A DNA stretch of 21,496 nucleotides from a bacterium (GTDB lineage Bacteria > ARS69). Below, one piece after another: positions 7,675-21,496 of this stretch. Made by a program: the position numbers and the translations under genes. Location: assembly GCA_025774865.1 (NCBI GenBank), contig JALGZO010000188.1, forward strand, positions 1 to 21,496, given 5' to 3'. Positions within the stretch are counted from its first letter, which is position 1. The number at the start of each line of letters is the position of its first letter. The notes beneath the pieces were generated by a model. The model worked only from the letters and a program-made list of their open reading frames with translations, made no database searches and was not told where the DNA came from.

Positions 7675-9141
7675 TCACCCCGGATCGTGTGGCAAGCTCC
7701 CCCGCGGTGCGCGCCAATAGGCGAAGGGCGTTTGGTACACGAAGTTCGAAACGCGCGAAGTATAGATGTCGGCGTACCGCTCCACCTGCCTCGCGTAGAG
7801 GCTCTTGTCGTTTCCGGCCCGCATGAGCGAGCCCCAAATGGGATTCCCCAGCTCGGCCGCGGACTGCGCGAGTGGCGCGATCCGTTCGTCGAGCTCTTCG
7901 AACTGTTCGCGCAGCTCGGTGAGCCGGGCCTCCGCCCCGTCTGCCTCTTCTGCATCGGTCGGCCCGTAACCGTCGCGCGCCCGCTGGGCGACGAGGCGCC
8001 GCCGGCAGATCTCCGCCTCGATCGCCTCCTTCTGCTCCATCATCTCTCGCAGCTTCTTCTGCGTTTCTTCGAAGTCGCGAAGGTCGCGGAGCTCCTCTTC
8101 CAGCTCGCGCAGAATGAGCGCGGTGCGCCACCGGTGGACCGCTTTCGACACGTGAACGTCGCCGTAGAGATGGTCACCCACGAAGAGAATCTCGTCGCCG
8201 GAAACGCCGAGCTGTTTCTCGAGGAACGCGGCGCTCCCACCGAAGTACACTCCACCCTTGCGAATGGCGCCGAAGTGCGGTCGCAGCAAGCCCAGGTTCT
8301 CCTCGACGACTTCGTACATCGGATTCGGTCGGAAGAAGAAGTCCGGCTTGCGCGCCGAGACGATCACCGTGTGGAAGAGATCACGCCACGTCATGCCGTC
8401 CGGCAGGAAACGGTCGAACGCGTAGGACATCATCGATCTCGTGAAATCCCACTCGGAGTTCGTGATGAGGAGGAGCTTCTTGCCGGCGTGCCGCTGATCG
8501 AGGAGCGCGAGCGGAAGCTCCGGGTCGTGTTCCACGAACCTCTCCGGATCCGCGATGATCTCGGCCTTGAAGCTCCCCTCCATGTGGACCGCGTCGATGC
8601 TGTTGCGCACGGCCTGGTAGAGCTCGGCGTAGCCGAGTACTCCGGGAAGCTCGTGTTGGTCGACCCGATCGACGAGCTGCGCGAACAGACTCGCCTCCGA
8701 GTGGGAGAACAACGTGTTCAGGAAGACGAACCGGTCCTCGGAGAGGTCGACGATTCTACCGGCGTACGCGCGGCGCTGTTCGTCGAAGTCGAGGACGCGC
8801 GTGCCGTGAGCGGCCTTCATCACGTAACCGAAACGGTTCGGCTTCACGAGATTGCCGAGCTCGAGGTCGAATGTGAGACCGCGGATCACCTGCCGCGCTT
8901 CGAATTTCAAATCGTCGACCGGCCACCCGCGATCGCCGAGCACCCGCCGGGCGTAGCCGAAGGCGAGCTTCTCACCTTCCTGGGCCCGGTAATGGACCAG
9001 GGTGTAGTCCATGTCGTAACCGACGGCTCGGGTCGAGCGGAGGTTCAACGTGCGATTGCAGAAGATGCCGCGTTCGGCGGGGTAATCGGCCGTCGGCACA
9101 GGAGTCGGCGCGACCTCGGCCGTATCTCGGGTCCGGGACAT
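7675..9141 (-). CDS. HAD-superfamily 5'-nucleotidase, NT5C2/cN-II type
   Basis: A 488-residue protein of the IMP/GMP-specific cytosolic 5'-nucleotidase family (PF05761), known mainly from animals and scattered bacteria. All HAD motifs are visible: motif I DMDYTLVHY with Asp 43 (nucleophile) and Asp 45; motif II LLLITNSEWDF with Thr 227; the Lys of motif III in ARKPDFFF (~265); and motif IV FVGDHLYGDV with Asp 323 and Asp 328. Length and motif spacing match the family. It would dephosphorylate purine nucleoside monophosphates in the cytoplasm. Residues ~343-430 form a long charged coiled coil (ELEEELRDLRDFEETQKKLR and onward) that is also present in NT5C2 relatives. The ATG at 9141 is preferred because GGAGAGGAAC precedes it; an in-frame ATG at 9165 is possible. 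It is downstream of a winged-helix gene (83 bases) and 22 bases upstream of the lyase-like gene. Confidence 0.9.
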   Translation of the reverse strand: MSRTRDTAEVAPTPVPTADYPAERGIFCNRTLNLRSTRAVGYDMDYTLVHYRAQEGEKLAFGYARRVLGDRGWPVDDLKFEARQVIRGLTFDLELGNLVKPNRFGYVMKAAHGTRVLDFDEQRRAYAGRIVDLSEDRFVFLNTLFSHSEASLFAQLVDRVDQHELPGVLGYAELYQAVRNSIDAVHMEGSFKAEIIADPERFVEHDPELPLALLDQRHAGKKLLLITNSEWDFTRSMMSYAFDRFLPDGMTWRDLFHTVIVSARKPDFFFRPNPMYEVVEENLGLLRPHFGAIRKGGVYFGGSAAFLEKQLGVSGDEILFVGDHLYGDVHVSKAVHRWRTALILRELEEELRDLRDFEETQKKLREMMEQKEAIEAEICRRRLVAQRARDGYGPTDAEEADGAEARLTELREQFEELDERIAPLAQSAAELGNPIWGSLMRAGNDKSLYARQVERYADIYTSRVSNFVYQTPFAYWRAPRGSLPHDPG

Positions 9142-9224
9142 GAGTTCCTCTCCGTTGGCGGCCATGATACTCGCCCCCGGGGTGGGGGGATAGTTCCGGT
9201 GGGGGAGCGGTGAGAGACGAGCGG

Positions 9225-9509
9225 TCAGCGGTCGGGCGCGCCCCATGCGTAGCCGACGCCCTTCACGGTGACGACGATCCTCGGACTCGAGGGATCCCGT
9301 TCGATCTTGTGTCGGAGGTTCGAGATCGTCATGTCGACCGTGCGAGTCTGAAGATCGCCGGGCACGCCCCACACGTTCTCGAGGAGCTCCGGACGGGAGA
9401 CGGCCCGGTTGCGATGATGGTAGAGCCAGCTCAGGATATCGACCTCGCGCTTCGTGAGGTGCACCTGCGGTTGCTCGACCACGAAGTTGCGCATCGAATC
9501 AGGGGTCAT
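9225..9509 (-). CDS. Stand-alone OmpR/PhoB-type winged-helix DNA-binding protein
   Basis: A 94-residue protein that is essentially only the C-terminal effector domain of an OmpR-family response regulator: VHLTKREVDILSWLYHHRNR (the LT-x-x-E-x-x-L-L opening), SRPELLENVWG (helix 2), RTVDMTISNLRHKIE (recognition helix, with the R-T-V-D and R-x-K-I-E consensus) and IVVTVKGVGYAWG (the beta hairpin V-x-G-x-G-Y). There is no receiver domain and no kinase gene beside it. The ATG used has no clear ribosome binding site. A GTG at 9698 would add 63 residues, but these look non-coding, contain no receiver-like motif and include a palindrome. It probably regulates its own operon or acts as a partner of another regulator; this is inference. 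Identity of the domain is strong, the start less so. Confidence 0.78.
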   Translation of the reverse strand: MTPDSMRNFVVEQPQVHLTKREVDILSWLYHHRNRAVSRPELLENVWGVPGDLQTRTVDMTISNLRHKIERDPSSPRIVVTVKGVGYAWGAPDR

Positions 9510-9619
9510 GGCACGCCCATTCTCGACGGAACCGCCGTCCGCGGAGTCGAGTGGCAGGGAAGGAACCGCCGGGCTCCAGGGGCGGAGGTGATCTCGTGTG
9601 TGGACCACAGCGCATCTAC

Positions 9620-9629
9620 TTTTCGAAAA
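9620..9629. promoter_or_regulatory. 10-bp AT-rich palindrome upstream of winged-helix gene
   Basis: TTTTCGAAAA lies in the 279-base gap between the winged-helix gene and the broken AhpD-like gene. It is the most AT-rich point of the gap, immediately followed on the plus strand by AACCCCC, and could be an operator or a melting site. No good -35/-10 pair was found, and the rest of the gap holds no gene I can support. Confidence 0.25.
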
Positions 9630-9788
9630 ACCCCCGATTCGCGCAAGGGGGGCGGCCCGTTCGGCACCCCACGATTTACACGGCCGCGGAAGCGGCACGG
9701 GCTCATTCCCGAGCGTAGCTCCCCGGAGGATGAGACGAGTTTCGTCGCCCTTTCGTTCAGGGAACGCGCTCGAAGGGGATCGCGCTGA

Positions 9789-10279
9789 TCAGGTACCGGG
9801 TTCGAGACTCACGCCGAGTCCGTCCGCGACGCGATTGACGTACGCGTAGTACGCAGTCACTTCCACGATCGCGAGCACATCCCGATCGGAGAAGCCGGCG
9901 TCGTGGAGCCGCCCGACGTCTCCCTCCGTCATCTCCGAGGGCGTGAGGGTGAGCTTGCGGACGAACCGCACCATCGCCAGCCGTCGTTCGTCGAGCCCCG
10001 CCGACTCCGGATCCTCGGCGATTCGGTCGGCTAGTTCGTGTGGCAGTCGTTGAGGCGGCTGACCGTGACCGCGATCATCTCGCGATCGACCTTCCGGAGC
10101 GTCGCGGTCCCGGCCATGACGGCCCGGTACAAGTCGTTGTGGGCCGCGAGCCCGGCCGGGTGGAGCGAATGGCACTTCAAGATGTTGTCGACCTGCCCCG
10201 ATCGATCGGCCAAATCCTCGTACAGACGGGCGAGCTCTCCCTCGGCCTCTTGCTCGTCGATCACGCGAATCCAGGTCAT
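9789..10279 (-). pseudogene. Peroxidase-related (AhpD-like, CMD family) gene, broken by deletion
   Basis: Two adjoining reading frames together make most of an alkylhydroperoxidase-like protein. The first (10279-10031) starts MTWIRVIDEQEAEGELARLY, includes VDREMIAVTVSRLNDC and then ends H-T-N-stop. The second, in the next frame (about 10034-9789), resumes LADRIAEDPESAGL and continues with RFVRKLTLTPSEMTEGDV and YYAYVNRVADGLGV, as in the family. Between them the expected C-x-x-C and following His-His active-site block is missing: only Cys 79 and His 80 remain. The frame change means a net loss of 3n+1 bases, probably about 46-55 by comparison with family layout. The family reduces peroxides through this dithiol site, so the product would be inactive. 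Promoter and AGGAG ribosome binding site are intact, which suggests a recent break or an assembly error. Confidence 0.78.
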
Positions 10280-10544: not shown

Positions 10545-10607
10545 TTGTCGCGATTGCTCCGCCGCGCGAACATGGCTCCGCCGCCTCCGCGTCGCGCGAG
10601 GAGCCCC

Positions 10608-11417
10608 ATGGACGAAGCTCGACTCGAGGAAATCTGGGACGAGGTCTGGACGCTGCTCCAGGACGGGAGATCGGACGCGGCGACGTCCCGAGTTCTCGCG
10701 ATCTTGAACGACGAGGGCGACGCGCCCGAGCTCCGGTATCTCCTCGGCGTGTCCCTCATGGATCTGGACGAAGTCCACGCCGCGATCTCCGAGCTCGAGA
10801 ACGCGACGGGCCAGGATCCCGGCTGGCCCGACCCGCACGCCGCGCTCGCGTGGGCGTACTTCCGCGCCTGCCGGTTCGACGAGGCACAGGAGATGGTCGA
10901 CGGGGTGCTGCAAATGGAGCCCGAGCTCGCGGAAGGACATCAACTCCAGGGGCTCTTGGCAGAGCGGGCCGGCGACGAGGACGGCGCGGCGACCGCGTTC
11001 GCCGAGGCTCGACGCCTCGATCCCGAACGCTACCCGGACGCGGTGCACATGGACGAAGAGGAGTTCTTGGAAGTCGCGCGCGAGGCGGTGCGCGAGCTCG
11101 ACGAATCGATCCTGGAGGTACTCGAGGAAACCTCGTTCTTCGTACAGAACGTGCCGGCCCGGGATCTTCTCGTCGAGTCCGAGCCACCGCTGGATCCGCA
11201 GCTCCTGGGTCTCTTCGTGGGCCGGAGTCTCCTCGAGCAGTCGGTGCACGACTCGGGGGCGCTTCCCAACGCGATGTACCTCTTCCAGCGCAACCTCGAG
11301 CGAGGCGCCAGCACGAGAGGCGAGCTGGAGGAGGAGATCCGCATCACCGTCCTTCACGAGATCGGACATCATCTCGGCTGGGGCGAAGAGGAGTTGGAGG
11401 CAAGGGGTCTCGCCTGA
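10608..11417 (+). CDS. TPR-repeat protein fused to zincin-type metallopeptidase domain
   Basis: A 269-residue, very acidic protein in two parts. Residues ~5-145 are helical tetratricopeptide-like repeats (ELRYLLGVSLMDLDEVHAAI, PHAALAWAYFRACRFDEAQE, HQLQGLLAERAGDEDGAATA), each with the A-x-x-x-Y/G-x-x-x-x-x-(A/L) spacing. Residues ~150-269 match the small zincin family PF06262 (minimal metalloproteases related to gluzincins): the motif VLHEIGHHLGW with His 250, Glu 251 and His 254, followed by EEEL carrying the likely third ligand. EEIRITVLHEIGHH is a good match to that family's conserved block. There is no signal peptide, so it should be cytoplasmic. The ATG is chosen for GAGGAG 5 bases upstream; an ATG at 10572 and a TTG at 10545 in the same frame lack such a site. 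A hairpin follows the stop. The peptidase fold is secure; substrate and regulation are unknown. Confidence 0.82.
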   Translation: MDEARLEEIWDEVWTLLQDGRSDAATSRVLAILNDEGDAPELRYLLGVSLMDLDEVHAAISELENATGQDPGWPDPHAALAWAYFRACRFDEAQEMVDGVLQMEPELAEGHQLQGLLAERAGDEDGAATAFAEARRLDPERYPDAVHMDEEEFLEVAREAVRELDESILEVLEETSFFVQNVPARDLLVESEPPLDPQLLGLFVGRSLLEQSVHDSGALPNAMYLFQRNLERGASTRGELEEEIRITVLHEIGHHLGWGEEELEARGLA

Positions 11418-11499: not shown

Positions 11500-11528
11500 T
11501 TGACACCCGATATGGATGTGGCTACCTT
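11500..11528 (+). promoter_or_regulatory. Sigma-70-type promoter at the head of the plus-strand operon
   Basis: A perfect TTGACA (11500-11505), a 17-base spacer and TACCTT (11523-11528, TA...T pattern) make a good housekeeping-type promoter. Transcription would begin around 11535. The site overlaps the possible upstream start codons TTG 11500 and ATG 11512 of the S55 peptidase gene; if it is real, translation must start further in, for instance at TTG 11578. Confidence 0.5.
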
Positions 11529-13338
11529 CTGGCAGAGTCCGCGAAACGCCCACCCGAGAGCCGAACCACGATTTGCCTTGAGAAGCCCTGAACTCGCCCG
11601 CCGAGGCGTCTGTACCGCTCTTTCTCTCGCTGTCGTCGGGGGCCTCGGGCCCGCCTCCGCCGCCGACCTCGTCCCGTCCGCCGCTCTCGGTCTCGACGAG
11701 ATCCGGGCCGGAGCCGCCGCGACGACCAAGACCGTTCTCTCCGGCACGGACATCGTCGAGATTCCCGTCGAGATCATCTCCGTAGTTCGCAACATCGGTC
11801 CCCAGCGGGACATGATCCTCGCGCGTGGGCTGGGTGAGGAAATCGAGCGTCTCGGCGTTCCGAGCGGAATGAGCGGCAGCCCCGTCTACGTGGATGGTCG
11901 GCTGATCGGCGCCGTGTCGTCGACGTGGTCGTTCGCCCGCGAGCCTTTGATGGGGATCACGCCCGTCCACCAGATGGCGCGCGAAGCAGCGTGGGGATCG
12001 CAGGGCGTCTCCACGGGCGGCGAGGATCTGCTCCGGGCCACGATCCCCGAGGTGCCGGGGTCGTCCGCCCCCGGTCCGATCCGAACACCTCTCGTTCTCT
12101 CCGGCTTCGATCGACGCCTGGTGAACCTCGCGGCCGAGATCTTCGAGCCGTGGGGGTTCACGGTCGCCGAGGGTGGCACGGCGGGCGATGACCAGGCCGG
12201 CGGGGCGATCGAGCCCGGGGCGACCATCGGCGTGAGGCTCGCGGGGGGTGACGCGAACATCACTTCGTTCGGAACGGTCACCTGGGTCGACGGCGACTTC
12301 GTCCACGGCTGGGGGCATCCGATGTTCCAGATGGGCGAGGTCGAGATGCCCCTCGTCTCGGCGTACATTCACACGGTCATTCCGAACCAGTTCATGTCGT
12401 TCAAGCTCGGCAGCGGCGGCGACGTGGTCGGGACGCTGACGGCTGATCACCGCTCGGGGATCTTCGGACGTCTCGGCGACGCCCCGCGCACGACGAGCTT
12501 CGACCTGAATGTCGTCCGCGGCGAAACATCGGAGTCGTTTCACTTCGATCTCGTGCGCGACGAGTTCCTCGCCCCGAGTCTCGTCGGCATTACGGCGATG
12601 AACGCCTTGCTCGCGCACGGCGGCGCTGTCGGCGAGGAGACCGTGCGCTTCTCGCAGAGACTCGTACTGGACGATGCCCGCGAGGCGACGGTCGAGACAT
12701 TCATCGCGGGGAACCGCACGCTTCGCCAGATCACCACGCTGCTTTCCGAAGCGACCACGGCGATCATCGGGAATCCGTTCGAGGACGTCCGGATCGATCG
12801 CATCGACGGCGAGATCTCGGTCGATCGGGGGATCCGGCTCGCGGCGTTGACCGAGCTCTCATTGGAGGACGACCGTCCCGAGCCGGGCGAGATTCTGCGC
12901 GGCACGTATACGCTTCACGACTGGCGCGGCGGGGAAAGCCGCCATCCGTTCGAAGTCCAGCTGCCGGCGGACGCGCGGACCGGCCGATATCTTCTGCTCG
13001 TGGCCGACGCCGCGACGGCCGAACTGTACGAGGCCGAGCGCGATCCGCGATCCTTCGGCCCCCGCTCTCTCGACGAGCTCCTCGCGCGCATCGACCGTCT
13101 GCGTCAAACGGACGAGGTTCACATCCACCTGTATCGGCAGTCGCGGGGAGTGCTCATCCACGGTCGGCCGCTCGCCGATCTACCGCCGTCCGCGCTGTCG
13201 GTGATGCGGGGGACGTCCCGGAGCGGGGTCGACGACAACCTTCCCGCGGAGCTCGTACACGAGCATCGCGCGCACGTCGACCGCCTCGTCCAGGGGGCCC
13301 ACACGATCCTCTTCGAGGTCGAAAAGGAGCGCCGTTGA
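11512..13338 (+). CDS. Secreted S55 (SpoIVB-type) serine peptidase-domain protein
   Basis: About 608 residues from the ATG at 11512 (alternative TTG 11578, 586 residues). Signal peptide: ARRGVCTALSLAVVGGLGPA followed by S-A-A. The peptidase signature is GVPSGMSGSPVYVDGRLIGA at ~115-134, with Ser 121 the likely nucleophile by analogy to G-D-S-G-G-P. VHGWGHPMFQMGEVEMP at ~264-280 carries the likely catalytic His 269. Blocks such as VDGDFVHGWGHP and YIHTVIPNQFMSFKLG match the SpoIVB-like S55 proteins of Acidobacteria and related phyla. Here the Ser block precedes the His block, the reverse of Bacillus SpoIVB. The C-terminal ~230 residues are an extra beta-rich region with no name I recognise. 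The exact start is unsure because no ribosome binding site is visible and a promoter overlaps it. Its stop overlaps the propeller gene's start (TTGA), and it heads the operon. The protein should be periplasmic or exported. Confidence 0.82.
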   Translation: MDVATFWQSPRNAHPRAEPRFALRSPELARRGVCTALSLAVVGGLGPASAADLVPSAALGLDEIRAGAAATTKTVLSGTDIVEIPVEIISVVRNIGPQRDMILARGLGEEIERLGVPSGMSGSPVYVDGRLIGAVSSTWSFAREPLMGITPVHQMAREAAWGSQGVSTGGEDLLRATIPEVPGSSAPGPIRTPLVLSGFDRRLVNLAAEIFEPWGFTVAEGGTAGDDQAGGAIEPGATIGVRLAGGDANITSFGTVTWVDGDFVHGWGHPMFQMGEVEMPLVSAYIHTVIPNQFMSFKLGSGGDVVGTLTADHRSGIFGRLGDAPRTTSFDLNVVRGETSESFHFDLVRDEFLAPSLVGITAMNALLAHGGAVGEETVRFSQRLVLDDAREATVETFIAGNRTLRQITTLLSEATTAIIGNPFEDVRIDRIDGEISVDRGIRLAALTELSLEDDRPEPGEILRGTYTLHDWRGGESRHPFEVQLPADARTGRYLLLVADAATAELYEAERDPRSFGPRSLDELLARIDRLRQTDEVHIHLYRQSRGVLIHGRPLADLPPSALSVMRGTSRSGVDDNLPAELVHEHRAHVDRLVQGAHTILFEVEKERR

Positions 13339-15488
13339 AGCCGCACTCGTTTCCGATCCGGTCCGTTCTCGCGGCGGCGACGACGCTCTTCGCGACGACG
13401 GCGTTCGCGGTGTCTCCCAAGTACTGGATCCACGACACGGCGGAAGAGTTTCTTCGCGGCGAGCCCGACGGGGTCTCGGTGATGGGCGAAGGGACGCTCC
13501 GGCTCGCGCCCAAGGTGGACAAGATCGCCGAGCGCGATGAGCCGTACGTCTGGGATCTCGCACGCGATCCTCGTAACGGTGACGTCTATCTCGGCACCGG
13601 TGACGACGGATTGGTCGTACGGGTTCGCGGTAGTGAATCGGAGAGCTTCTTCCAGGCCGCGACCCTGGAAGTGGTCTCGGTGATCGTGGGTGACGACGGA
13701 CGCGTTTACGTCGGGACCGCGCCGGAGGGCTTCGTGTACGTGATCACTCCGGACGGCGAAGGCGAGCTCATCTTCGACGCGGAAGAACTCTATGTCTGGG
13801 ACCTCGCGATCGGCCCTGATGGCATGCTCTACGCCGCGGTGGGGCCGGGCGGTTCCGTCTACCGGATCGATCCCCGATCCGGGAAATCGGAACGGTTCTT
13901 CCAAACCGACGACAATCACGTCGTCTGCCTCGCCTTCGACTCAAACGGGAACCTGCTCGTCGGAACGGAGGGGCGGGGTCTGGTCGTTCGCATCAAGCCC
14001 GACGGCGAGTCGCACGTGCTCCACGACTTCCCGCAGGGCGAAGTCGGAGCCGTGCTCCCCGGACCGGACGGAAGCGTGTGGGCGGCCGCCGCCGCGACCG
14101 CCGAGTCTCGCGACGAACCCACCCAGCCGGACCGGAACGCCGACGGCACCGGCATCGACTACATGTTCGAGATCACGCCTTCGACCGCCGGCGATGGCGT
14201 GCTGTATCGCATCGAGCCCGGGGGCGACGCGATGCGCGTATGGGAGTCCGGCCAGGGCGCGATCTACGATCTCGTGTGGAGCGGCGACGGGCGGATTCTC
14301 GCGACGACGGGTGACGACGGTGGAATCTACGAAGTGGACGTCGAAGGGCGGACCACGCTCGTCCTCGCGACCGAGGAGAATCAGGTGGTCGCCATCGAGC
14401 CCGATGACGATGGGGGCTTCCTGTACGCGACCGCCAATCCGTCGAGGCTCGTCCGGATCTCCTCCCGGTACCGGGACCAGGGCACGCTGGTGTCCGAGGT
14501 TCTCGACGCCCGCCACCTCGCGAAGTGGGGACGCATCGAGTGGACCGGCGAGAAAGGCGGAGGGAAGGTGTCGCTCTCGGTCCGCTCCGGCAACACCGAC
14601 GAGCCGGATGGAAGCTGGACGCAGTGGAGCAAGGGGATCGACGGCGGGTCCGGCACGCTCGCGTTTCTCGGAAAGGTCCGCTACCTGCAATGGCGCGCCA
14701 CTCTGGACGGGGGCGGCCGCGATACCCCGCTCGTCCGCCGTGTCCGCGTGTCCTCTCTCGAGAACAATCTGCCGCCGCTGGTCTCGGACGTGCGCGTCGT
14801 TCCGTCGGGTAACCGTTACTACGAGGATACTCCCGAGCTGCGCCCGCGCCCGCTCTTCCAGGCCCTTCCGGGAGGAGTCAAGGTGCAGTACTCGTACGAC
14901 CTCGGCGGCGAGCAGGAGCTTCCCGCGGAAGCGCGGGCGCCGTGGACGCACGGGTTGAGGCAAGTGTCCTGGAACGCGGTCGACCCGAACGAGGATTTCC
15001 TCATCTTCGATCTTTCGTACCGGCGGGAGGACGAGAAGCGCTGGAAACAGTTCGCCGAGAGCGTCGAGGGGCAGAACTACACGTTCAACGCGAAGGGAAT
15101 GCCCGACGGAAAGTACCGGATCCTCGTGTCCGCGAGCGACCGCCGGTTCAATCCGAATGACGAAAGGACGACCTCGCGGGAGAGCGAGTCGTTCATCGTC
15201 GACAACACCGCGCCCGGCTTCCGAGATGTGAAGCACCAGCATCGAGACGGCGAGATCAGCATTTCCGGTACCCTCAGCGACGAGCTCTCCGATCTCGTCC
15301 GGTTCGAAGTCTCCCTGAACGGGGAGGATTGGATCGACCGAGAGCCGACCGACGGCATCTTCGACTCTTCACGGGAGCAGTTCGAGCTGAAGCTCGAGGC
15401 GGTGGCGGGTGAGGAGCACTCGATCATCCTGCGCGGCACCGACCTCGCCGGGAACCTCGGCACGACTCGTGTCCTGATCCGACCATGA
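13335..15488 (+). CDS. Secreted beta-propeller protein with Ig-like C-terminal part
   Basis: 717 residues from a TTG start that sits in the overlap TTGA with the peptidase stop and has AAGGAG 5-6 bases ahead. Signal peptide: RSVLAAATTLFATTAFA. Residues ~70-380 contain about seven blade repeats with the pattern (V/L)-Y-x-G-T-x-x-x-G-x-(V/I)-x-(R/V)-(I/V), for example DVYLGTGDDGLVVRV, RVYVGTAPEGFVYVI, MLYAAVGPGGSVYRI and RILATTGDDGGIYEV. A roughly 35-residue Asp/Pro-rich insertion interrupts the fifth blade. Residues ~395-475 (WGRIEWTGEKGGG ... SWTQWSKGIDGG ... YLQWRATL) look like a beta-sandwich domain, and ~480-717 look like Ig/fibronectin-like domains (SFIVDNTAPGF, SISGTLSDELSDLVRFEVSL). No catalytic residues stand out; propellers of this kind bind proteins or glycans. 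Translational coupling with the peptidase suggests the two work together. It could also be a stand-alone envelope protein. Confidence 0.8.
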   Translation: MKPHSFPIRSVLAAATTLFATTAFAVSPKYWIHDTAEEFLRGEPDGVSVMGEGTLRLAPKVDKIAERDEPYVWDLARDPRNGDVYLGTGDDGLVVRVRGSESESFFQAATLEVVSVIVGDDGRVYVGTAPEGFVYVITPDGEGELIFDAEELYVWDLAIGPDGMLYAAVGPGGSVYRIDPRSGKSERFFQTDDNHVVCLAFDSNGNLLVGTEGRGLVVRIKPDGESHVLHDFPQGEVGAVLPGPDGSVWAAAAATAESRDEPTQPDRNADGTGIDYMFEITPSTAGDGVLYRIEPGGDAMRVWESGQGAIYDLVWSGDGRILATTGDDGGIYEVDVEGRTTLVLATEENQVVAIEPDDDGGFLYATANPSRLVRISSRYRDQGTLVSEVLDARHLAKWGRIEWTGEKGGGKVSLSVRSGNTDEPDGSWTQWSKGIDGGSGTLAFLGKVRYLQWRATLDGGGRDTPLVRRVRVSSLENNLPPLVSDVRVVPSGNRYYEDTPELRPRPLFQALPGGVKVQYSYDLGGEQELPAEARAPWTHGLRQVSWNAVDPNEDFLIFDLSYRREDEKRWKQFAESVEGQNYTFNAKGMPDGKYRILVSASDRRFNPNDERTTSRESESFIVDNTAPGFRDVKHQHRDGEISISGTLSDELSDLVRFEVSLNGEDWIDREPTDGIFDSSREQFELKLEAVAGEEHSIILRGTDLAGNLGTTRVLIRP

Positions 15489-16021
15489 GCCGTCCAGCGG
15501 TGCTGCTCGATCGCGACGGCACGCTCAACGAGAGTCCCAAGGAGTACATCACGTCGGTCGACGACTTCGTGCCGATCCCCGGCGCGTTCGAGGCGGTGGG
15601 TCGGCTCTGTCGCGCGGGCTGGCCGGTCGTGCTCGCGACGAACCAGTCGTGTATCGGTCGCGGTATCGCCACCCGCGAGGAGGTCGATCGGGTGCACGCC
15701 GAGTGCGCCCGGATCGCGGCCGAGAGCGGCGGATCGTTCGAAGGATTCCACGTCTGTCCCCACGCGCCCGACGAAGGGTGCGCGTGTCGCAAGCCCCTGC
15801 CGGGCCTCCTGCTGGAGGCGGCGTCCGAGCACGACTACGATCTCTTCCGGTCGTTCGTCATCGGCGACTCGTTGCGCGACCTCGTCGCGGGTCGGTCCGC
15901 CGGAGCCACGTCGCTTCTCGTCCTCACGGGTCACGGTCGAGAGGCGCGCGCGGAGCACCCCGAACGCCTGACGTTCGAGACCGTCGTGGAAGCAATCGAC
16001 TGGATTCTTTCCCGCGCGTGA
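15485..16021 (+). CDS. gmhB: D-glycero-D-manno-heptose 1,7-bisphosphate 7-phosphatase (HAD, GmhB type)
   Basis: 178 residues, the usual length for GmhB. HAD motif I is LLDRDGTLNE with Asp 9 and Asp 11. Motif II is ATNQS (Thr 52). The zinc-binding loop typical of GmhB/HisB phosphatases is present as CPHAPDEGCACRKP, with ligands Cys 91, His 93, Cys 99 and Cys 101 and the motif III Lys at 103. Motif IV is VIGDSLRDL with Asp 128 and Asp 132. GmhB removes the 7-phosphate of heptose bisphosphate on the way to ADP- or GDP-heptose for cell-surface glycans. Histidinol-phosphatase has the same fold, so the substrate is a strong but not absolute call. The ATG overlaps the propeller stop (ATGA). No gmhA, hldE or gmhD gene is in view, so the rest of the pathway must be elsewhere. 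It could supply a heptose to the following transferases. Confidence 0.85.
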   Translation: MSRPAVLLDRDGTLNESPKEYITSVDDFVPIPGAFEAVGRLCRAGWPVVLATNQSCIGRGIATREEVDRVHAECARIAAESGGSFEGFHVCPHAPDEGCACRKPLPGLLLEAASEHDYDLFRSFVIGDSLRDLVAGRSAGATSLLVLTGHGREARAEHPERLTFETVVEAIDWILSRA

Positions 16022-16034
16022 TCTAGGAGCGAGG

Positions 16035-16766
16035 ATGCTTGACGCCGCCCCACGACTCTCAGTCGTGATCCCGGCCTACAACGAGGGGAAGCGGCTCAGA
16101 GCCACGCTCGAGCGTGTCCTCGAATGGACGGGGCAGTGGGGTGGGACGTTCGAGGTGCTCGTCGTCGACGACGGGAGCCGGGACGATACGTCCGCCATCG
16201 CGGGCGAGTTCGCGTCCAACCACGAGCACTTCGCGTTGCACCGACTGAGTCGGAATCGCGGCAAGGGAGCTGCCGTCCGCGAAGGGTTCGTGAGGAGTCG
16301 AGGCGAGTTCGTGCTGTTCTCCGATGCCGATCTTTCGACTCCGATCGAGGAGTACGAACGGCTTCAGGAAATCGTCGACGGGGGCGCGGATTTCGTGATC
16401 GCTTCTCGCGGTTTGCCGGGGTCCGACCTCGTCATTCGCCAGGTGTGGTACCGCGAGTGGATGGGGAAGACGTTCAACGGCTTCGTCCGTTTGCTGACCG
16501 GAATCCCGTTCCGCGACACGCAGTGCGGTTTCAAGCTGATTCGCGGACAGCCGGCGCGAGACGTCGCCCGGTTCATGAAAGAGGAAGGGTTCGCGTTCGA
16601 CGTGGAGCTCATTCTCCTCGCGAACCGTAAGGGATTGCGTATCCAGGAGCTCCCCGTGTCCTGGTCGAACGACGACGCGAGCCGGGTGAATCCCGTGACC
16701 GACTCGCTGCGCATGCTGGCGTCGCTGGCCCGGATTGTTGCGCGTACCGGGAGATACCGTGACTGA
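16035..16766 (+). CDS. Family 2 glycosyltransferase, dolichyl-phosphate glucosyl/mannosyltransferase-like
   Basis: 243 residues, a single GT-A domain. SVVIPAYNEGKRL is the first strand and loop, VLVVDDGSRDDT holds the DDGS motif (45-48), LSRNRGKGAAVREGF is the conserved R-N-x-G-K-G-x-A-V-x-x-G block, and LFSDADLSTPIEEYERL holds the metal-binding DAD (97-99). RDTQCGFKLIRG is the hallmark of ALG5/DPM1-type enzymes, which transfer a hexose from a nucleotide sugar to a polyprenyl phosphate at the cytoplasmic face. There are no transmembrane helices, as in ALG5-like soluble relatives. The start has TAGGAGCGAGG directly ahead of it. It lies 13 bases after gmhB and overlaps the next gene by 8 bases. 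The donor sugar cannot be told; the product would be a polyprenyl-phosphate sugar, the donor that GT-C transferases downstream use. Confidence 0.86.
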   Translation: MLDAAPRLSVVIPAYNEGKRLRATLERVLEWTGQWGGTFEVLVVDDGSRDDTSAIAGEFASNHEHFALHRLSRNRGKGAAVREGFVRSRGEFVLFSDADLSTPIEEYERLQEIVDGGADFVIASRGLPGSDLVIRQVWYREWMGKTFNGFVRLLTGIPFRDTQCGFKLIRGQPARDVARFMKEEGFAFDVELILLANRKGLRIQELPVSWSNDDASRVNPVTDSLRMLASLARIVARTGRYRD

Positions 16767-19134
16767 GGCGAGTGGCGTACCCGTGACGAGCCCCGGAAGC
16801 GTCGGTTTGAGCGAGCGGGTCATCGTGACGGCGGCGCTCACGCTGTTCATGCTGCTCGCGGTTCTTTCTCTGCGCGTCAAGAACCCGACGTTCGACGAGA
16901 CGGCCCACCTCGCGGCCGGAATCTCGTACGTGCAGACGCGGGACTTCCGCCTGAATCCGGAGCATCCTGCATTGACGAAACTGCTCGCGGGGGCGACGGC
17001 GACGATCGCCGGCGCGGGGCACTCGTACGACACCGTCGCCTGGCGCGACGCCGAGCAGTGGGACTTCGCGCGGGAGGCGCTCTACTCGCCCGGCTCGGAT
17101 TGGCGGCGCGTGCTCCAGGCGGGGCGCTTGCCGATGGTCGCGATCGGTGTGCTGCTCGGTGTCGTCCTGTGGGGGTGGGCGCGCGCCATGGCGGGCCCGG
17201 CCGCCGCCGCGATCGCGCTCGGGATCTACGCGTTTTCGCCGAACTTCCTCGCACACACGCGGCTCGTGACGACCGACGTGCCGCTCACGTTCACCGTCGT
17301 GGCGGCGACCGCGTGCCTCTGGGCGGCCTGGCGCACCGGGAAGCTCGGGTGGACGATCTCGGCGGCGTCCTTCGTGGGACTTTCCATGGTGACGAAGTTC
17401 TCGGCGTTTTCGTACGCACCGGCGTACATCGCACTCGCGGTTCTGCCGTCCGCCGCCCGCCCCTGGCGACGATCGCTCGTGCACGCCGGGGTCTTCGTCG
17501 CGGCGTCCTTCGTTCTGACCGAGCTCTTGGTCTTCGTCTGCTACGGATTCGCGTCCGACTGGATCACGATCCGGTCGCTCGGTCTGGAAGGCCGGGGCGT
17601 GAGTCCGGAAGGCATGAGTGGGCTCCGGCGGATCGCGCTCGAGATCATGGCGAGCGTTCCTTGGCCCTCCGCTGCGTTTGCGACGGGCCTGAAAGACATC
17701 ATCCTGTTCACCGAGGCGGGTCATCCCGTCTACCTCATGGGGATGCGCGGGGATCAGGGGTGGTGGTGGGCGCCGTTAGTGACGCTCGGCGTGAAGATGC
17801 CGCTTCCGATCCTGGCTCTGATCGGGGCCGCCATCGTGGCGATCGTGCGCTCGCCGACCCTTCGCCGCCGAGATCTCGTCTTTCTGATCGTCCCCGCGTT
17901 GCTCGTGCTGGTCACGAACGTCGCCGCGAATCTCGGGCTCGGGGTGCGTCACTTGATGCCGATGTTCCCGTTTCTCATGATCCTCGTGGGGTGGGCGTCC
18001 CGCGCTCTCCCGCGTGTGCTTGTCGTGGTGATGCTCCTCTGGCACGCCGTCGGGACCGTCGCGGCGCACCCGCACTACCTACCGTTCTTCAACGAGATCG
18101 CGCGAGCGACCGGGGGGGGAGCTCGCTGGCTCGGGGACTCGAATCTCGACTGGGGACAGGATCTCTCGGCGGCGGCTGAACGACTTCGCGAACGGGGGGC
18201 AACCGGAGCGATCCTCTGCTACTTCGGGACGGCAAGCCCGTTCGTCGAGGGTCTCGCGTGGCAGATCCTCCCGCCTACGCTGCGGGAGAAGGCGCGCGAT
18301 CCGTGGACGGAGTTGCCGACGGAGGGGCCGCAATGGCTCGCCGTGAGCGTGACGAACGCGCAGGGCATCTACTACCGAACGCCGGGCGACGAAGACCCGC
18401 TCGCGTGGCTCGAGGGGTTCGAGCCCGACGAAGTGGTGGGAGAAACGATCCGACTGTACGAAATCTCGACGATCGACGAAGTGCAACGCGGGCTCGTCGA
18501 GGTGTACGAGCGTCACGGTCTCCGGGAGGAGGCGCGCCGGGCCCTGATTCGCGTCGTCCGGGAAAGTCCTTACGACGGAGAATCGCGACGTGCCCTGATC
18601 GCGGCGTACCTGGCGGCCGGTGAGCTCGAGGAGGCTGAAGCGACGATCCTGCAGGCGCAAAATCCGAGTGTGGAGGAGGTGCTTCAGCTCGCGAACATCC
18701 GGAAGCAGCTCGGAAACGACGAGGGGATCCGGGAGGTGTACGAGTCGGGGCTCCGTGGATTCAAGTACGAGGCAGAAATCCACAACGAGTATGCGTGGTG
18801 GCTGCAGGAGAACGAACTCGACCTCGACAAGGCCCTTCAACTCGCGGCCCGCGCCGTCGAGTTGGGTCCCGGGGACTTCTACTATCTCGACACCCTCGCC
18901 ATGGTGCACCTCCGACGGCACGAGTACTGGGAGGCGCTCGAGGCGATCGATGCCGCGCTCGCGCTCCCCGGCGCCGACGTCGGGGAGATCCGCTGGCACC
19001 GGGTTCTCGTCCTGACCGGGCTGCGCCGCGATCGGGAGGCCGTCCGCGAGGCGGAGCGCATTCTCGACCGCGACGACATCTCGCCGGAGCTCGAAGAAGA
19101 GGTCGGGCTCTGGCTCTTCGAGGTCGATCGATGA
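16759..19134 (+). CDS. GT-C glycosyltransferase (PMT/ArnT-like) with C-terminal TPR-like tail
   Basis: 791 residues from a GTG start with GGGAG 5 bases ahead, overlapping the previous stop by 8 bases. The N-terminal ~450 residues are multi-pass membrane. After the first helix comes the GT-C catalytic signature NPTFDETAHLAAG with Asp 46 and Glu 47, and LNPEHPALTKLL at 65-76, the (P-x-H-P-x-L-x-K) motif of PMT/ArnT-like lipid-carrier-dependent transferases. GDSNLDWGQDLSAAAERL follows the last helices and is common in this subfamily. Residues ~575-791 are soluble and helical with TPR-like repeats (LVEVYERHGLREEARRALIR, RRALIAAYLAAGELEEAEAT, IHNEYAWWLQENELDLDKAL). It would use polyprenyl-phosphate sugar outside the inner membrane to glycosylate a protein, lipid or glycan. 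The preceding ALG5-like enzyme could make that donor. The acceptor is unknown; the TPR tail may bind it. Confidence 0.85.
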   Translation: MTEASGVPVTSPGSVGLSERVIVTAALTLFMLLAVLSLRVKNPTFDETAHLAAGISYVQTRDFRLNPEHPALTKLLAGATATIAGAGHSYDTVAWRDAEQWDFAREALYSPGSDWRRVLQAGRLPMVAIGVLLGVVLWGWARAMAGPAAAAIALGIYAFSPNFLAHTRLVTTDVPLTFTVVAATACLWAAWRTGKLGWTISAASFVGLSMVTKFSAFSYAPAYIALAVLPSAARPWRRSLVHAGVFVAASFVLTELLVFVCYGFASDWITIRSLGLEGRGVSPEGMSGLRRIALEIMASVPWPSAAFATGLKDIILFTEAGHPVYLMGMRGDQGWWWAPLVTLGVKMPLPILALIGAAIVAIVRSPTLRRRDLVFLIVPALLVLVTNVAANLGLGVRHLMPMFPFLMILVGWASRALPRVLVVVMLLWHAVGTVAAHPHYLPFFNEIARATGGGARWLGDSNLDWGQDLSAAAERLRERGATGAILCYFGTASPFVEGLAWQILPPTLREKARDPWTELPTEGPQWLAVSVTNAQGIYYRTPGDEDPLAWLEGFEPDEVVGETIRLYEISTIDEVQRGLVEVYERHGLREEARRALIRVVRESPYDGESRRALIAAYLAAGELEEAEATILQAQNPSVEEVLQLANIRKQLGNDEGIREVYESGLRGFKYEAEIHNEYAWWLQENELDLDKALQLAARAVELGPGDFYYLDTLAMVHLRRHEYWEALEAIDAALALPGADVGEIRWHRVLVLTGLRRDREAVREAERILDRDDISPELEEEVGLWLFEVDR

Positions 19135-20825
19135 CGCTTCGGCGGGGTCCTCGCGTCGCCGTCGCGGTCCTCGCCCTCGCGGCTCCCTACCTGCCGATCG
19201 CCGCCGGGGTGTCGCTCGGCGGGGGATTCGTCGCGGCGGCGATCGTCGGCGCCGCGGCGCTCGGGGCGCCGGGCACGGCCGGTCTCCTCTGGGGACGCGG
19301 GCGCGGCGTGGCGCGAAGGTTCGCGCACGCGCTCGGAGCAGTCGTACTCCTGAACGTCGCCGCGGCAGTGGGGTTGAAGCTGGCCGGGATCTCGCCGACC
19401 GCCGCGAGTTTCGCGGCGGCGCTCGGGGTGCTGACCATGGCGACCGGCGGAGCCGCCGTCGCACGCGGCAGCACGATGCCGGGACTCACGAAGGAGCCCG
19501 CGGGAATCGTCGTGGCCGTGATCGGCTGCGGGCTCGCGTGGCTCTCCGGCACCTACGTCGTGCCGCCGCTCGAGGATCAGGACATGGAGGTTCAGGGGAC
19601 CGCTTGGGGGCTCGCCAATGATCTCGAGCCGCTTTGTCTCACGAATCGGAGCACACTGTACTTCTTCGCGCACCCGCTCCTGCTGCACGCGCTCAACGCC
19701 TCGACCCTGACGCTGGCGGGTGAGCTTCCGATCGTGCGGCCCGCGTACGACGCGGCGGTCGCGGCGCGCGAAGCGTCGGGCGCGGTGGAACGGCCGCGGG
19801 GAGTCGTCGCGGCGTGGCGAGCGTTGCGAGCTCCGGAGGTTAGAGTCGATCGGAGCTTCGAATGGTTCCACGAAGTGTACAAGCCCTTCCTCGAGTCGCC
19901 GGCGCTGCTCGGGACGCGGACCCCGAACTGGGTGCTCGCCGGCGCCGTCGCGGTCCTGCTGTTCGCCGCGGCGAGGCGCTCGGGGGCGGGGGCGGGTGAC
20001 GCGGCGCTCGTCACCGTGACCTACGCGACGCTCCCCGAGATCTTCGTGCGCTCGGGGTACGGCGGCTACTACGTCCTGAGCGCGGCGACGATGCTCGCGG
20101 GAGCTTCGCTCGCGTCCGGCGACCAGGGTGGCGGGCGGTCCGGATACGTCGCCGGAGCACTCGCGATTCTCTCGAACCAGAAGGCGCTCGTCGTCGCGAT
20201 GGCCGTCGGCGCGTTCCGGACCATGGTGGCGGTCGCTCAGCGTCCGACGCGCCTCGCGGCGGCCGCGCCGTACGTTCTAGGCATCGTCGCCGGGGGAACG
20301 GCGTTCTGGGTCTACGGTTTGGCGATCGCCCCGAGCGAATTCGTGGCGGACCACGTGCTCGATCACGCCCTGAAGCGCTTTGCGGGCGGCGAAGTCACGA
20401 GCCGGGCGGGGCAGGCGGTCTACGCGTCGAGGCCGGGGATCTGGCTCGAGTTCGCACGGCACATGGGGGGGGGCTGGGTCATCCTCGCCGCGGCGGGGCT
20501 CACGCTCGGCTTGCGGCAAACGTGGCGGGAGGTCGCGGCCGAGCCGACGGGGGAGTCGTCCCGGGGATCGCTGGTCGCGATCCTGACGCTCTGGTCCATC
20601 GTCGGCGCCGTCGTATTCACCGCGACGGACTGGCGACAGACGAAGCATCTCTGTCTGATCGTGCCTGCGCTCTCGGTGTTGATCGCGGCGCTCTTTCCCG
20701 CCGCCCGCCCCCGACCGCGAATGATGCTGCGAGTCGGTCTCGTCCTGTCGTTCGCGTGGAACGTCCGCTGGCTCGTGCGACTCGCGAACGACTTCGACTC
20801 CTTCACGGTGACGCCGATATGGTGA
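19131..20825 (+). CDS. Multi-pass membrane protein, divergent GT-C glycosyltransferase-like
   Basis: 564 residues with about 11-13 hydrophobic segments, starting in an ATGA overlap with the GT-C gene. The first ~140 residues hold four or five helices of low complexity (Ala, Gly, Val). Then comes VVPPLEDQDMEVQGTAWGLA at 143-162, with acidic residues E148, D149, D151 and E153, and FFAHPLLLHALNA at 178-190. The pattern acidic pair, A-x-G-L, and H-P-x-L-x-H recalls the D-E ... H-P-x-L signature of the PMT/ArnT family in the first external loop. Later helices such as LAILSNQKALVVAMAVGAF and the conserved TDWRQTKHLCLIVPALSVL near the C-terminus are also PMT-like. If this is GT-C, the extra N-terminal helices are unusual. 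It might instead be a polymerase or an accessory protein. It overlaps the next gene by 7 bases. Confidence 0.6.
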   Translation: MTLRRGPRVAVAVLALAAPYLPIAAGVSLGGGFVAAAIVGAAALGAPGTAGLLWGRGRGVARRFAHALGAVVLLNVAAAVGLKLAGISPTAASFAAALGVLTMATGGAAVARGSTMPGLTKEPAGIVVAVIGCGLAWLSGTYVVPPLEDQDMEVQGTAWGLANDLEPLCLTNRSTLYFFAHPLLLHALNASTLTLAGELPIVRPAYDAAVAAREASGAVERPRGVVAAWRALRAPEVRVDRSFEWFHEVYKPFLESPALLGTRTPNWVLAGAVAVLLFAAARRSGAGAGDAALVTVTYATLPEIFVRSGYGGYYVLSAATMLAGASLASGDQGGGRSGYVAGALAILSNQKALVVAMAVGAFRTMVAVAQRPTRLAAAAPYVLGIVAGGTAFWVYGLAIAPSEFVADHVLDHALKRFAGGEVTSRAGQAVYASRPGIWLEFARHMGGGWVILAAAGLTLGLRQTWREVAAEPTGESSRGSLVAILTLWSIVGAVVFTATDWRQTKHLCLIVPALSVLIAALFPAARPRPRMMLRVGLVLSFAWNVRWLVRLANDFDSFTVTPIW

Positions 20826-21496
20826 GGCTCCGGGTCACGGCCACGGTGGTCGCGGCGGCCGGCAGTATCGTCCTCTCGGGCTGCGGCGGAGCCCGGGAGC
20901 CGTCGGAGCCGGCGGAACCCACGCGGGCCGCGACGACCCTGATCGGGCTGGACGGTGCCGACTGGCGCAACGCGATCCCGCTGATTCGTCAGGGGAAGCT
21001 CCCGGTGCTCGCGGCGCTGAAGCGCGCCGGCACGAGCGGCGTGATGCTGACGAACCCGGACTACCGCTGGTCGCCCGTTCTGTGGACCACGATCGCGACC
21101 GGGAAGCTGCCGAGCCAGACCGGGGTCACGAACTTCTTCGCGCGGGTTCAGGGGATCGACCGTCCGATCCCGACGCCGTCCATGGCGCGCCGGTGCAAGG
21201 CGATCTGGAACATCTTCAGCGAGGAGAATCTCGAAGTGGGCTTCGTCGGCTGGTGGGTGACGTGGCCGGCCGAGCCCGTGAACGGGTTCATCGTCTCGGA
21301 TCACTTCTCGGTGTCCCGGTTCGATCTCGGCGACGAGTACGAGCGCGACGTCGAGGACGAGGCGTACTTCTTCCGGCAGACCTATCCGGAGGAGCTCGCG
21401 CAGGAGATCCGTCCGCTGAAGTACGAGCGGCGCCAAGTCGGCCGCGACGATTTCTCGCGGTTCGCCGACCTTCCCGACGACTGGGAGCTTCCGAAG
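20819..21496 (+). CDS. Lipoprotein phosphodiesterase / alkaline phosphatase superfamily (partial)
   Basis: 226 codons, cut by the right edge, starting at ATG 20819 (an adjacent GTG 20822 is also possible) inside the end of the previous gene. The signal peptide ends in the lipobox V-L-S-G-C with Cys 22. The catalytic region begins TTLIGLDGADWRNAIPLI at 39-56, with Asp 45 and Asp 48, one of which binds metal. WSPVLWTTIATGKLPSQTG at ~84-102 carries the threonine nucleophile (Thr 90 or 91). These are the opening motifs of the type I phosphodiesterase / nucleotide pyrophosphatase family (PF01663). Many relatives have His-Gly-Ile/Val after the P-S; here it is Q-T-G-V. The remaining metal ligands (D-x-x-x-H, D-H, H) lie beyond the window, so activity cannot be judged. 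It might trim phosphate- or nucleotide-containing groups, or transfer phosphoryl groups, in the envelope. Confidence 0.8.
   Translation, partial: MVRLRVTATVVAAAGSIVLSGCGGAREPSEPAEPTRAATTLIGLDGADWRNAIPLIRQGKLPVLAALKRAGTSGVMLTNPDYRWSPVLWTTIATGKLPSQTGVTNFFARVQGIDRPIPTPSMARRCKAIWNIFSEENLEVGFVGWWVTWPAEPVNGFIVSDHFSVSRFDLGDEYERDVEDEAYFFRQTYPEELAQEIRPLKYERRQVGRDDFSRFADLPDDWELPK

Follow-up and report, generated by a model that had tools for sequence, protein, structure and literature searches.

We analysed a stretch of 21,496 bases (the window), which is the complete contig C191 (JALGZO010000188.1) of a bacterial genome of 785 contigs, and found at the head of a row of seven plus-strand genes a predicted protease related to the peptidase SpoIVB (family S55) followed by a beta-propeller protein. 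The S55-like protein appears to be circularly permuted relative to SpoIVB, with the half carrying the catalytic serine in front of the half carrying the histidine, and we give a probability of about 0.6 to the reading that it is a secreted protease acting in the envelope with a dedicated propeller/immunoglobulin (Ig)-like partner, the two being co-expressed here with polyprenyl-sugar glycosyltransferases. PA-clan proteases, which are among the best-studied enzymes, run His-Asp-Ser along the chain. A sequence-only reading of this DNA had named an S55 peptidase and had missed the reversed order of the catalytic halves. The features of the two proteins, with the evidence used for each, are the following.

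11500–13338, plus strand: S55-like secreted protease, apparently permuted (Ser half first, His half second); PF05580, alignments and AlphaFold2 model
11677–12015, plus strand: first beta-barrel (residues 60–172), bearing GMSGSPVY; VIA-align and hhalign
11872–11874, plus strand: codon of Ser125, predicted nucleophile (SpoIVB Ser378); aligned to SpoIVB GMSGSP, invariant in 85 sequences, in part through the seeding of the scan
12187–12534, plus strand: second beta-barrel (residues 230–345), bearing GHP and a conserved Asp; fold model, structural matches and hhalign
12316–12318, plus strand: codon of His273, predicted general base (SpoIVB His236); aligned to SpoIVB GH, invariant in 85 sequences
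12445–12447, plus strand: codon of Asp316, candidate third triad residue; invariant in 85 sequences
13335–15488, plus strand: secreted beta-propeller and Ig-like protein, putative protease partner; Reg_prop and other matches, adjacency to the S55-like gene

Results

The order of the catalytic halves was computed directly: the motif GMSGSPVY stands near the front of the protein and GHP behind it, and this order is identical in 85 of 85 sequences. SpoIVB has its catalytic His236 ahead of Ser378. We compared each half by hhalign with four SpoIVB sequences, three of them from plasmid records and the fourth a Bacillus subtilis row read off the alignment to the PDB entry 9lnf, in which about 20 residues before GTMT did not come from that alignment. 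The Ser half (residues 60–175) matched the SpoIVB Ser half with an E-value of 3e-15 and gave no match to the SpoIVB His half. The His half gave no match to the SpoIVB Ser half and found its own SpoIVB counterpart at a score of 36.7 (E 2.2e-5), the motifs GT.T, GH and GI.G.L being lined up. Decoys for the latter comparison reached at most 21.6 in 200 column shuffles and 8.9 when reversed. The Pfam match of the window protein to PF05580 (1.2e-5) is partial, profile positions 116–201 lying on residues 66–152 only, and profile positions 12–113 were assigned, weakly (E 0.046), to the rear of a homologue from Brocadia. A profile search of the PDB likewise matched SpoIVB (9lnf, chain positions 223–326) with the front half only, and no SpoIVB came up when the His half was searched against PDB sequences, the signal emerging only in the profile-profile comparison. 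The Ser barrel has a signal-peptide-like stretch before it and nothing else, which leaves no room for an unseen His barrel at the front. The TTG listed as the start, at 11500, probably lies too far upstream, and a TTG in the same frame at 11578 fits better, because most homologues are gapped over residues 7–34 and the second TTG lies just before the signal-peptide-like helix (residues 31–48).

The AlphaFold2 model of the S55-like protein is confident, with a predicted local distance difference test score (pLDDT) of 86.9 and a predicted template modelling score (pTM) of 0.82, and this predicted structure appears to show two chymotrypsin-type barrels, of which the first is clear. Residues 61–171 of the model align by VIA-align to the C-terminal barrel of DegP (151–258, Z 8.6) and to SpoIVB (313–426, Z 6.8). 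When residues 230–348 were folded alone they also gave a barrel (pLDDT 89.9), and almost every structural match to it is a PA-clan barrel. Since these matches favour C-terminal barrels, we call the second barrel the His barrel on the basis of the sequence comparison. Structural matches to superantigen-type beta-grasp/OB folds were set aside as common-fold resemblance and not taken as a hint to function.

Several points weigh against the preferred reading. The second-barrel matches align mainly to C-terminal PA-clan barrels, so that structure by itself leaves the barrel type undecided, and their best Z of 7.8 lies within a range where ordinary resemblance is possible. The hhalign probability of the His-half match is just 66–76%, and this match depends on the four SpoIVB sequences. 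The invariance of GMSGSPVY is partly forced, as the scan was seeded on that motif; His273 and Asp316 were not seeds. Moreover, the propeller protein could equally be a substrate or an inhibitor. The first of these points, together with the general likeness of two PA-clan barrels, would also fit a reversed order that arose by independent pairing of two similar barrels, with a separate origin from a barrel duplication, and not by permutation of SpoIVB. We consider such an origin very unlikely, as each half matches its own SpoIVB counterpart only and the three motifs are in register.

The alignment with SpoIVB pairs Ser125 with Ser378 and His273 with His236, and the position of Asp316 is occupied by Asn or Ser in the four SpoIVB sequences. 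Asp316 follows His273 by 43 residues, a spacing near that of His57 and Asp102 in chymotrypsin, which are 45 residues apart. The crystal structure of SpoIVB (9lnf) places Asp363 about 24 Å from His236, and the third catalytic residue was left open there (PMC12502668). We infer a complete Ser-His-Asp triad for the permuted family, with Asp316 as its third member, and an active protease in the S55-like protein. The opposite view, a structural or binding protein that has retained the fold and is no longer a protease, could draw on the weak whole-protein similarity to SpoIVB, the TIGR02860 equivalog cut-off being missed with 23 bits against 305. It is hard to reconcile with an unvarying Ser, His and Asp in all 85 sequences, which come from several phyla, and with their retention in second copies that were recovered by whole-genome searches without seeding, namely L153 (GMSGSP/GHP/EDR) and L152 (GMSGSP/GHA/QDR), where the order Ser-His-Asp is kept and the sole change, GHP to GHA, lies beside the His; we regard it as very improbable. 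L153 (G021:C27) is a distant relative with a lipoprotein-like start and alanine-rich repeats, and no propeller match was found within its 4-kb locus. The permuted fold may make up a larger superfamily.

A scan of genome contigs recovered at least 579 loci that code for relatives of the S55-like protein; the neighbourhoods were taken from the best 80 of these. They span about ten phyla of mostly uncultured bacteria, among them acidobacteria, Aminicenantes, Gemmatimonadota, Latescibacterota, anammox and other Planctomycetes, Eisenbacteria, WOR-3, Hebobacteria and others, with bin labels as deposited, some of which are perhaps wrong. Five of the 80 loci had too little downstream sequence. At 69 of the 75 testable loci the S55-like gene is immediately followed by a propeller gene in the same orientation, usually no more than 150 bases away; the median gap is 16 bases and the genes overlap in 13 of 68 cases. 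In the six genomes without this adjacency a propeller homologue was found elsewhere in each (full length in three, split or partial in three), so both genes are present in every testable genome of the survey. At one of the 69 loci, labelled Candidatus Hebobacteria (L090:106-4050), the two are fused into a single protein of 1314 residues. Pairwise distances of the S55-like and propeller proteins correlate with r 0.95 over 71 pairs, which is expected from shared descent and adds little alone. Scans of viral contigs with the S55-like protein and with SpoIVB gave no matches.

The propeller protein itself matches Reg_prop (4.3e-11) and the ScyE_fam model (52 bits, below cut-off), and its stretch 380–480 is unusually conserved. 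Both members of the pair have signal-like N-termini, which makes the periplasm or the outer envelope the most likely place of action for the unit. The main rival to a partner that serves the protease is a propeller/Ig protein that is its dedicated substrate or bound inhibitor, as in a zymogen-like pair, and not an adaptor. The near-obligate one-to-one pairing, the natural fusion and the conserved stretch 380–480 would all be in line with it; in the fusion both parts are whole, which decides neither way. We consider this alternative doubtful, though the strongest of those weighed here.

The other neighbours of the pair vary by lineage, and for these we report only families that were checked individually, as all-against-all clustering was noisy from shadow reading frames. 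Besides a serine-palmitoyltransferase-like gene they include aroDE/trp, Sua5 and MobA, the last three named from their sequence. The serine-palmitoyltransferase-like gene immediately precedes the S55-like gene, in the same orientation, at nine loci of Aminicenantes and related bacteria (L034, at 8744-9958, L041, L042, L057, L058, L061, L067, L072 and L077), accompanied by a divergent SDR/epimerase-type gene, and a link to sphingolipid synthesis is possible. The genome of the window, which has 8.3% contamination, carries a second, divergent S55-propeller pair of about 30% identity on the minus strand of another contig (L013, G000:C66, 1-3042); this could be a paralogous pair or come from a contaminant contig.

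In the window the pair is followed by five further genes:

15485–16021, plus strand: GmhB-like HAD-IIIA phosphatase; NF006506, TIGR01656
16035–16766, plus strand: GT2 glycosyltransferase, probably a polyprenyl-phosphate-sugar synthase (DPM1/ALG5-like); PF00535, 1.3e-30
16759–19134, plus strand: PMT_2 membrane glycosyltransferase with C-terminal TPR (GTC1); PF13231, 1.2e-15, TPR_14
19131–20825, plus strand: membrane protein beside GTC1, GT-C-like by the sequence-only reading's call alone (GTC2)
20819–21496, plus strand: type I phosphodiesterase lipoprotein, truncated where the contig stops; PF01663, 2.5e-6

Re-reading of the contig reproduced exactly the seven frames and the junctions reported before, with overlaps of 4, 4, 8, 4 and 7 bases and one gap of 13 bases; non-ATG starts underlie these junctions (TTG for the S55-like and propeller genes, GTG for GTC1). 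Profile scans also agree with the family roles given in the sequence-only reading, that is S55 (PF05580), Reg_prop, HAD-IIIA/GmhB-like, GT2, PMT_2 with TPR, and Phosphodiest. To see how far the row recurs we searched five genomes of the phylum, all from one family, with the S55-like and propeller proteins. The two are adjacent in four of the five, and neither was detected in G002 (82% complete). An identical order of S55, propeller, GmhB, GT2, GTC1 and GTC2 is found in G001 and G004, which represent two other genera of the family, with protein identities of 42–63% and several of the 4-base overlaps retained, and this recurrence speaks against the chance packing that had been named as the refuting outcome. 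The first six genes thus form one conserved operon within the family. The claim of a seven-gene operon held for these six and not for the phosphodiesterase, whose orthologues lie elsewhere. The contig stops at 21496, so the 3' end of the operon lies outside the view, and in a scan for promoters and terminators no signal exceeded the shuffled controls.

The phosphodiesterase family is notably expanded in this bacterial family, where each genome has 10–15 matches to it; in G001, G003 and G004 the copies nearest to the window gene are found on other contigs. We rejected it as a part of the system, since its closest relatives are off-operon and the family is multicopy. The place behind GTC2 is taken in G001 by a second GT2 gene. 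Upstream of the operon, a gene for a TPR and zincin-like metalloprotease occupies 10545–11417 of the window; its orthologue in G001 (L017:311-1228) lies a few kilobases from the operon in unchanged orientation.

Of the four genes between the pair and the phosphodiesterase, the GmhB-like protein scores above the cut-off of TIGR01656 and misses the curated GmhB cut-offs (NF006506, 169.5 bits against 178; TIGR00213, 103 against 150), and an HldE-type kinase is encoded elsewhere in all five family genomes. The nearest curated models of the GT2 protein are ArnC- and AglJ-type, none above cut-off. GTC1 and GTC2 are adjacent in all five genomes, G002 included, and GTC2 has no Pfam or NCBIfam match. 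The GTC1 orthologue of G001 (L016:10232-12025) has 597 residues and is without most of the C-terminal TPR region.

The sequence-only reading had taken all seven genes as one envelope glycosylation system whose peptidase processes a glycosylated product. The order of the first six genes in three genera, their overlaps and the constant GTC1-GTC2 pair would agree with such a system, and the GT2 and PMT_2 genes do look like a polyprenyl-sugar transferase module. That the peptidase and the propeller share in it is not supported: in about ten phyla their pair stands apart from these genes and adjoins unrelated ones (the serine-palmitoyltransferase-like, aroDE/trp, Sua5 and MobA genes), and conversely G002, at 82% completeness, has GTC1-GTC2 with no S55-like or propeller gene detected. 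GmhB, GTC1 and GTC2 were near none of the 80 S55-like loci, and a search for GTC2 matched 0 of 22 other pair-bearing genomes with the same query that matched five of five family genomes. We therefore judge a single system of this kind unlikely. The S55-propeller pair is an old, independent two-gene unit, since it is common to about ten phyla without sugar genes nearby, and the GmhB-GT2-GTC1-GTC2 module is, in what was searched, joined to it in this family only. Co-expression in the family suggests envelope glycoproteins or glycans around the protease, and the wide distribution of the pair outside the family disfavours a required link between protease and sugar.

Discussion

In the model that we prefer, the head of the operon would encode a secreted two-part protease unit. 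Its first subunit would be the circularly permuted SpoIVB relative with the S55, PA-clan fold, in which barrel one contributes Ser125 and barrel two His273 and Asp316, so that the two barrels may rebuild a normal Ser-His-Asp active site at their interface. The propeller/Ig-like protein as second subunit would be made in step, bind the protease and either present substrates to it or gate and regulate it; both this physical binding and the substrate we infer. Specific to this family would be the joining of the pair to the four-gene sugar module, by which protease and envelope glycosylation are probably co-expressed and not obligately linked. The broader proposal, that a natural circular permutation in the PA clan has led to a widespread, undescribed family of envelope proteases that work only with a propeller and have a complete triad that SpoIVB lacks, appears to us evenly balanced.

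Should a large natural family with the Ser barrel in front be confirmed, it would show that this fold tolerates permutation in nature. It would also change the annotation of S55 matches outside spore formers, offer a comparison point for the open third catalytic residue of SpoIVB (PMC12502668), and name a widespread two-gene envelope unit with a testable function for mostly uncultured phyla. In the literature searched, subscription papers being outside its scope, we found no report of an S55 permutation, of the propeller pairing or of permuted chymotrypsin folds. Acidobacteria are not known as endospore formers. A survey has widely detected the SpoIVB peptidase (S55) in acidobacteria, without further analysis (PMC8841776), and our results suggest that many of these matches are members of the permuted family with its propeller partner.

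Compared with known systems, the sugar module shares with protein O-glycosylation by DPM1/ALG5-type GT2 and PMT/TMTC-type GT-C enzymes the succession of a GT2 protein and a PMT_2 protein whose C-terminal TPR gives it an architecture like that of the eukaryotic TMTC proteins, but the window genes reach no curated subfamily and are family-restricted in what was searched. The propeller partner has repeats in common with the ScyD/ScyE-like and Reg_prop propellers, to which it adds the conserved 380–480 module, an Ig-like tail and the fixed pairing with the S55-like protein. With the envelope proteases HtrA, DegP and DegS (PA clan, S1C) the S55-like protein shares the fold of the Ser barrel, as reflected in the DegP match, whereas in HtrA the His-Asp barrel comes first and PDZ domains are present; the S55-like protein is without PDZ and without a sequence match to that family. 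The closest relative remains SpoIVB (S55; PDB 9lnf; PF05580; TIGR02860), with which it has in common GMSGSP, the series GT.T...GH then GI.G.L, a probable two-barrel fold and a secreted or envelope location. In contrast to SpoIVB, its halves are reversed, it has extra beta-grasp-like and C-terminal domains and a propeller partner, and Asp316 is invariant at a position where the four SpoIVB sequences carry Asn or Ser. The PDZ domain that precedes the protease in SpoIVB had no match in the window protein by family scan, and no sporulation neighbours (spo0A, recN) occur in the window operon, whereas two canonical SpoIVB genes lie by spo0A. Although it departs from SpoIVB in the order of its halves, in the PDZ domain and in the curated score, the protein seems equipped to act in the manner of an S55/PA-clan protease.

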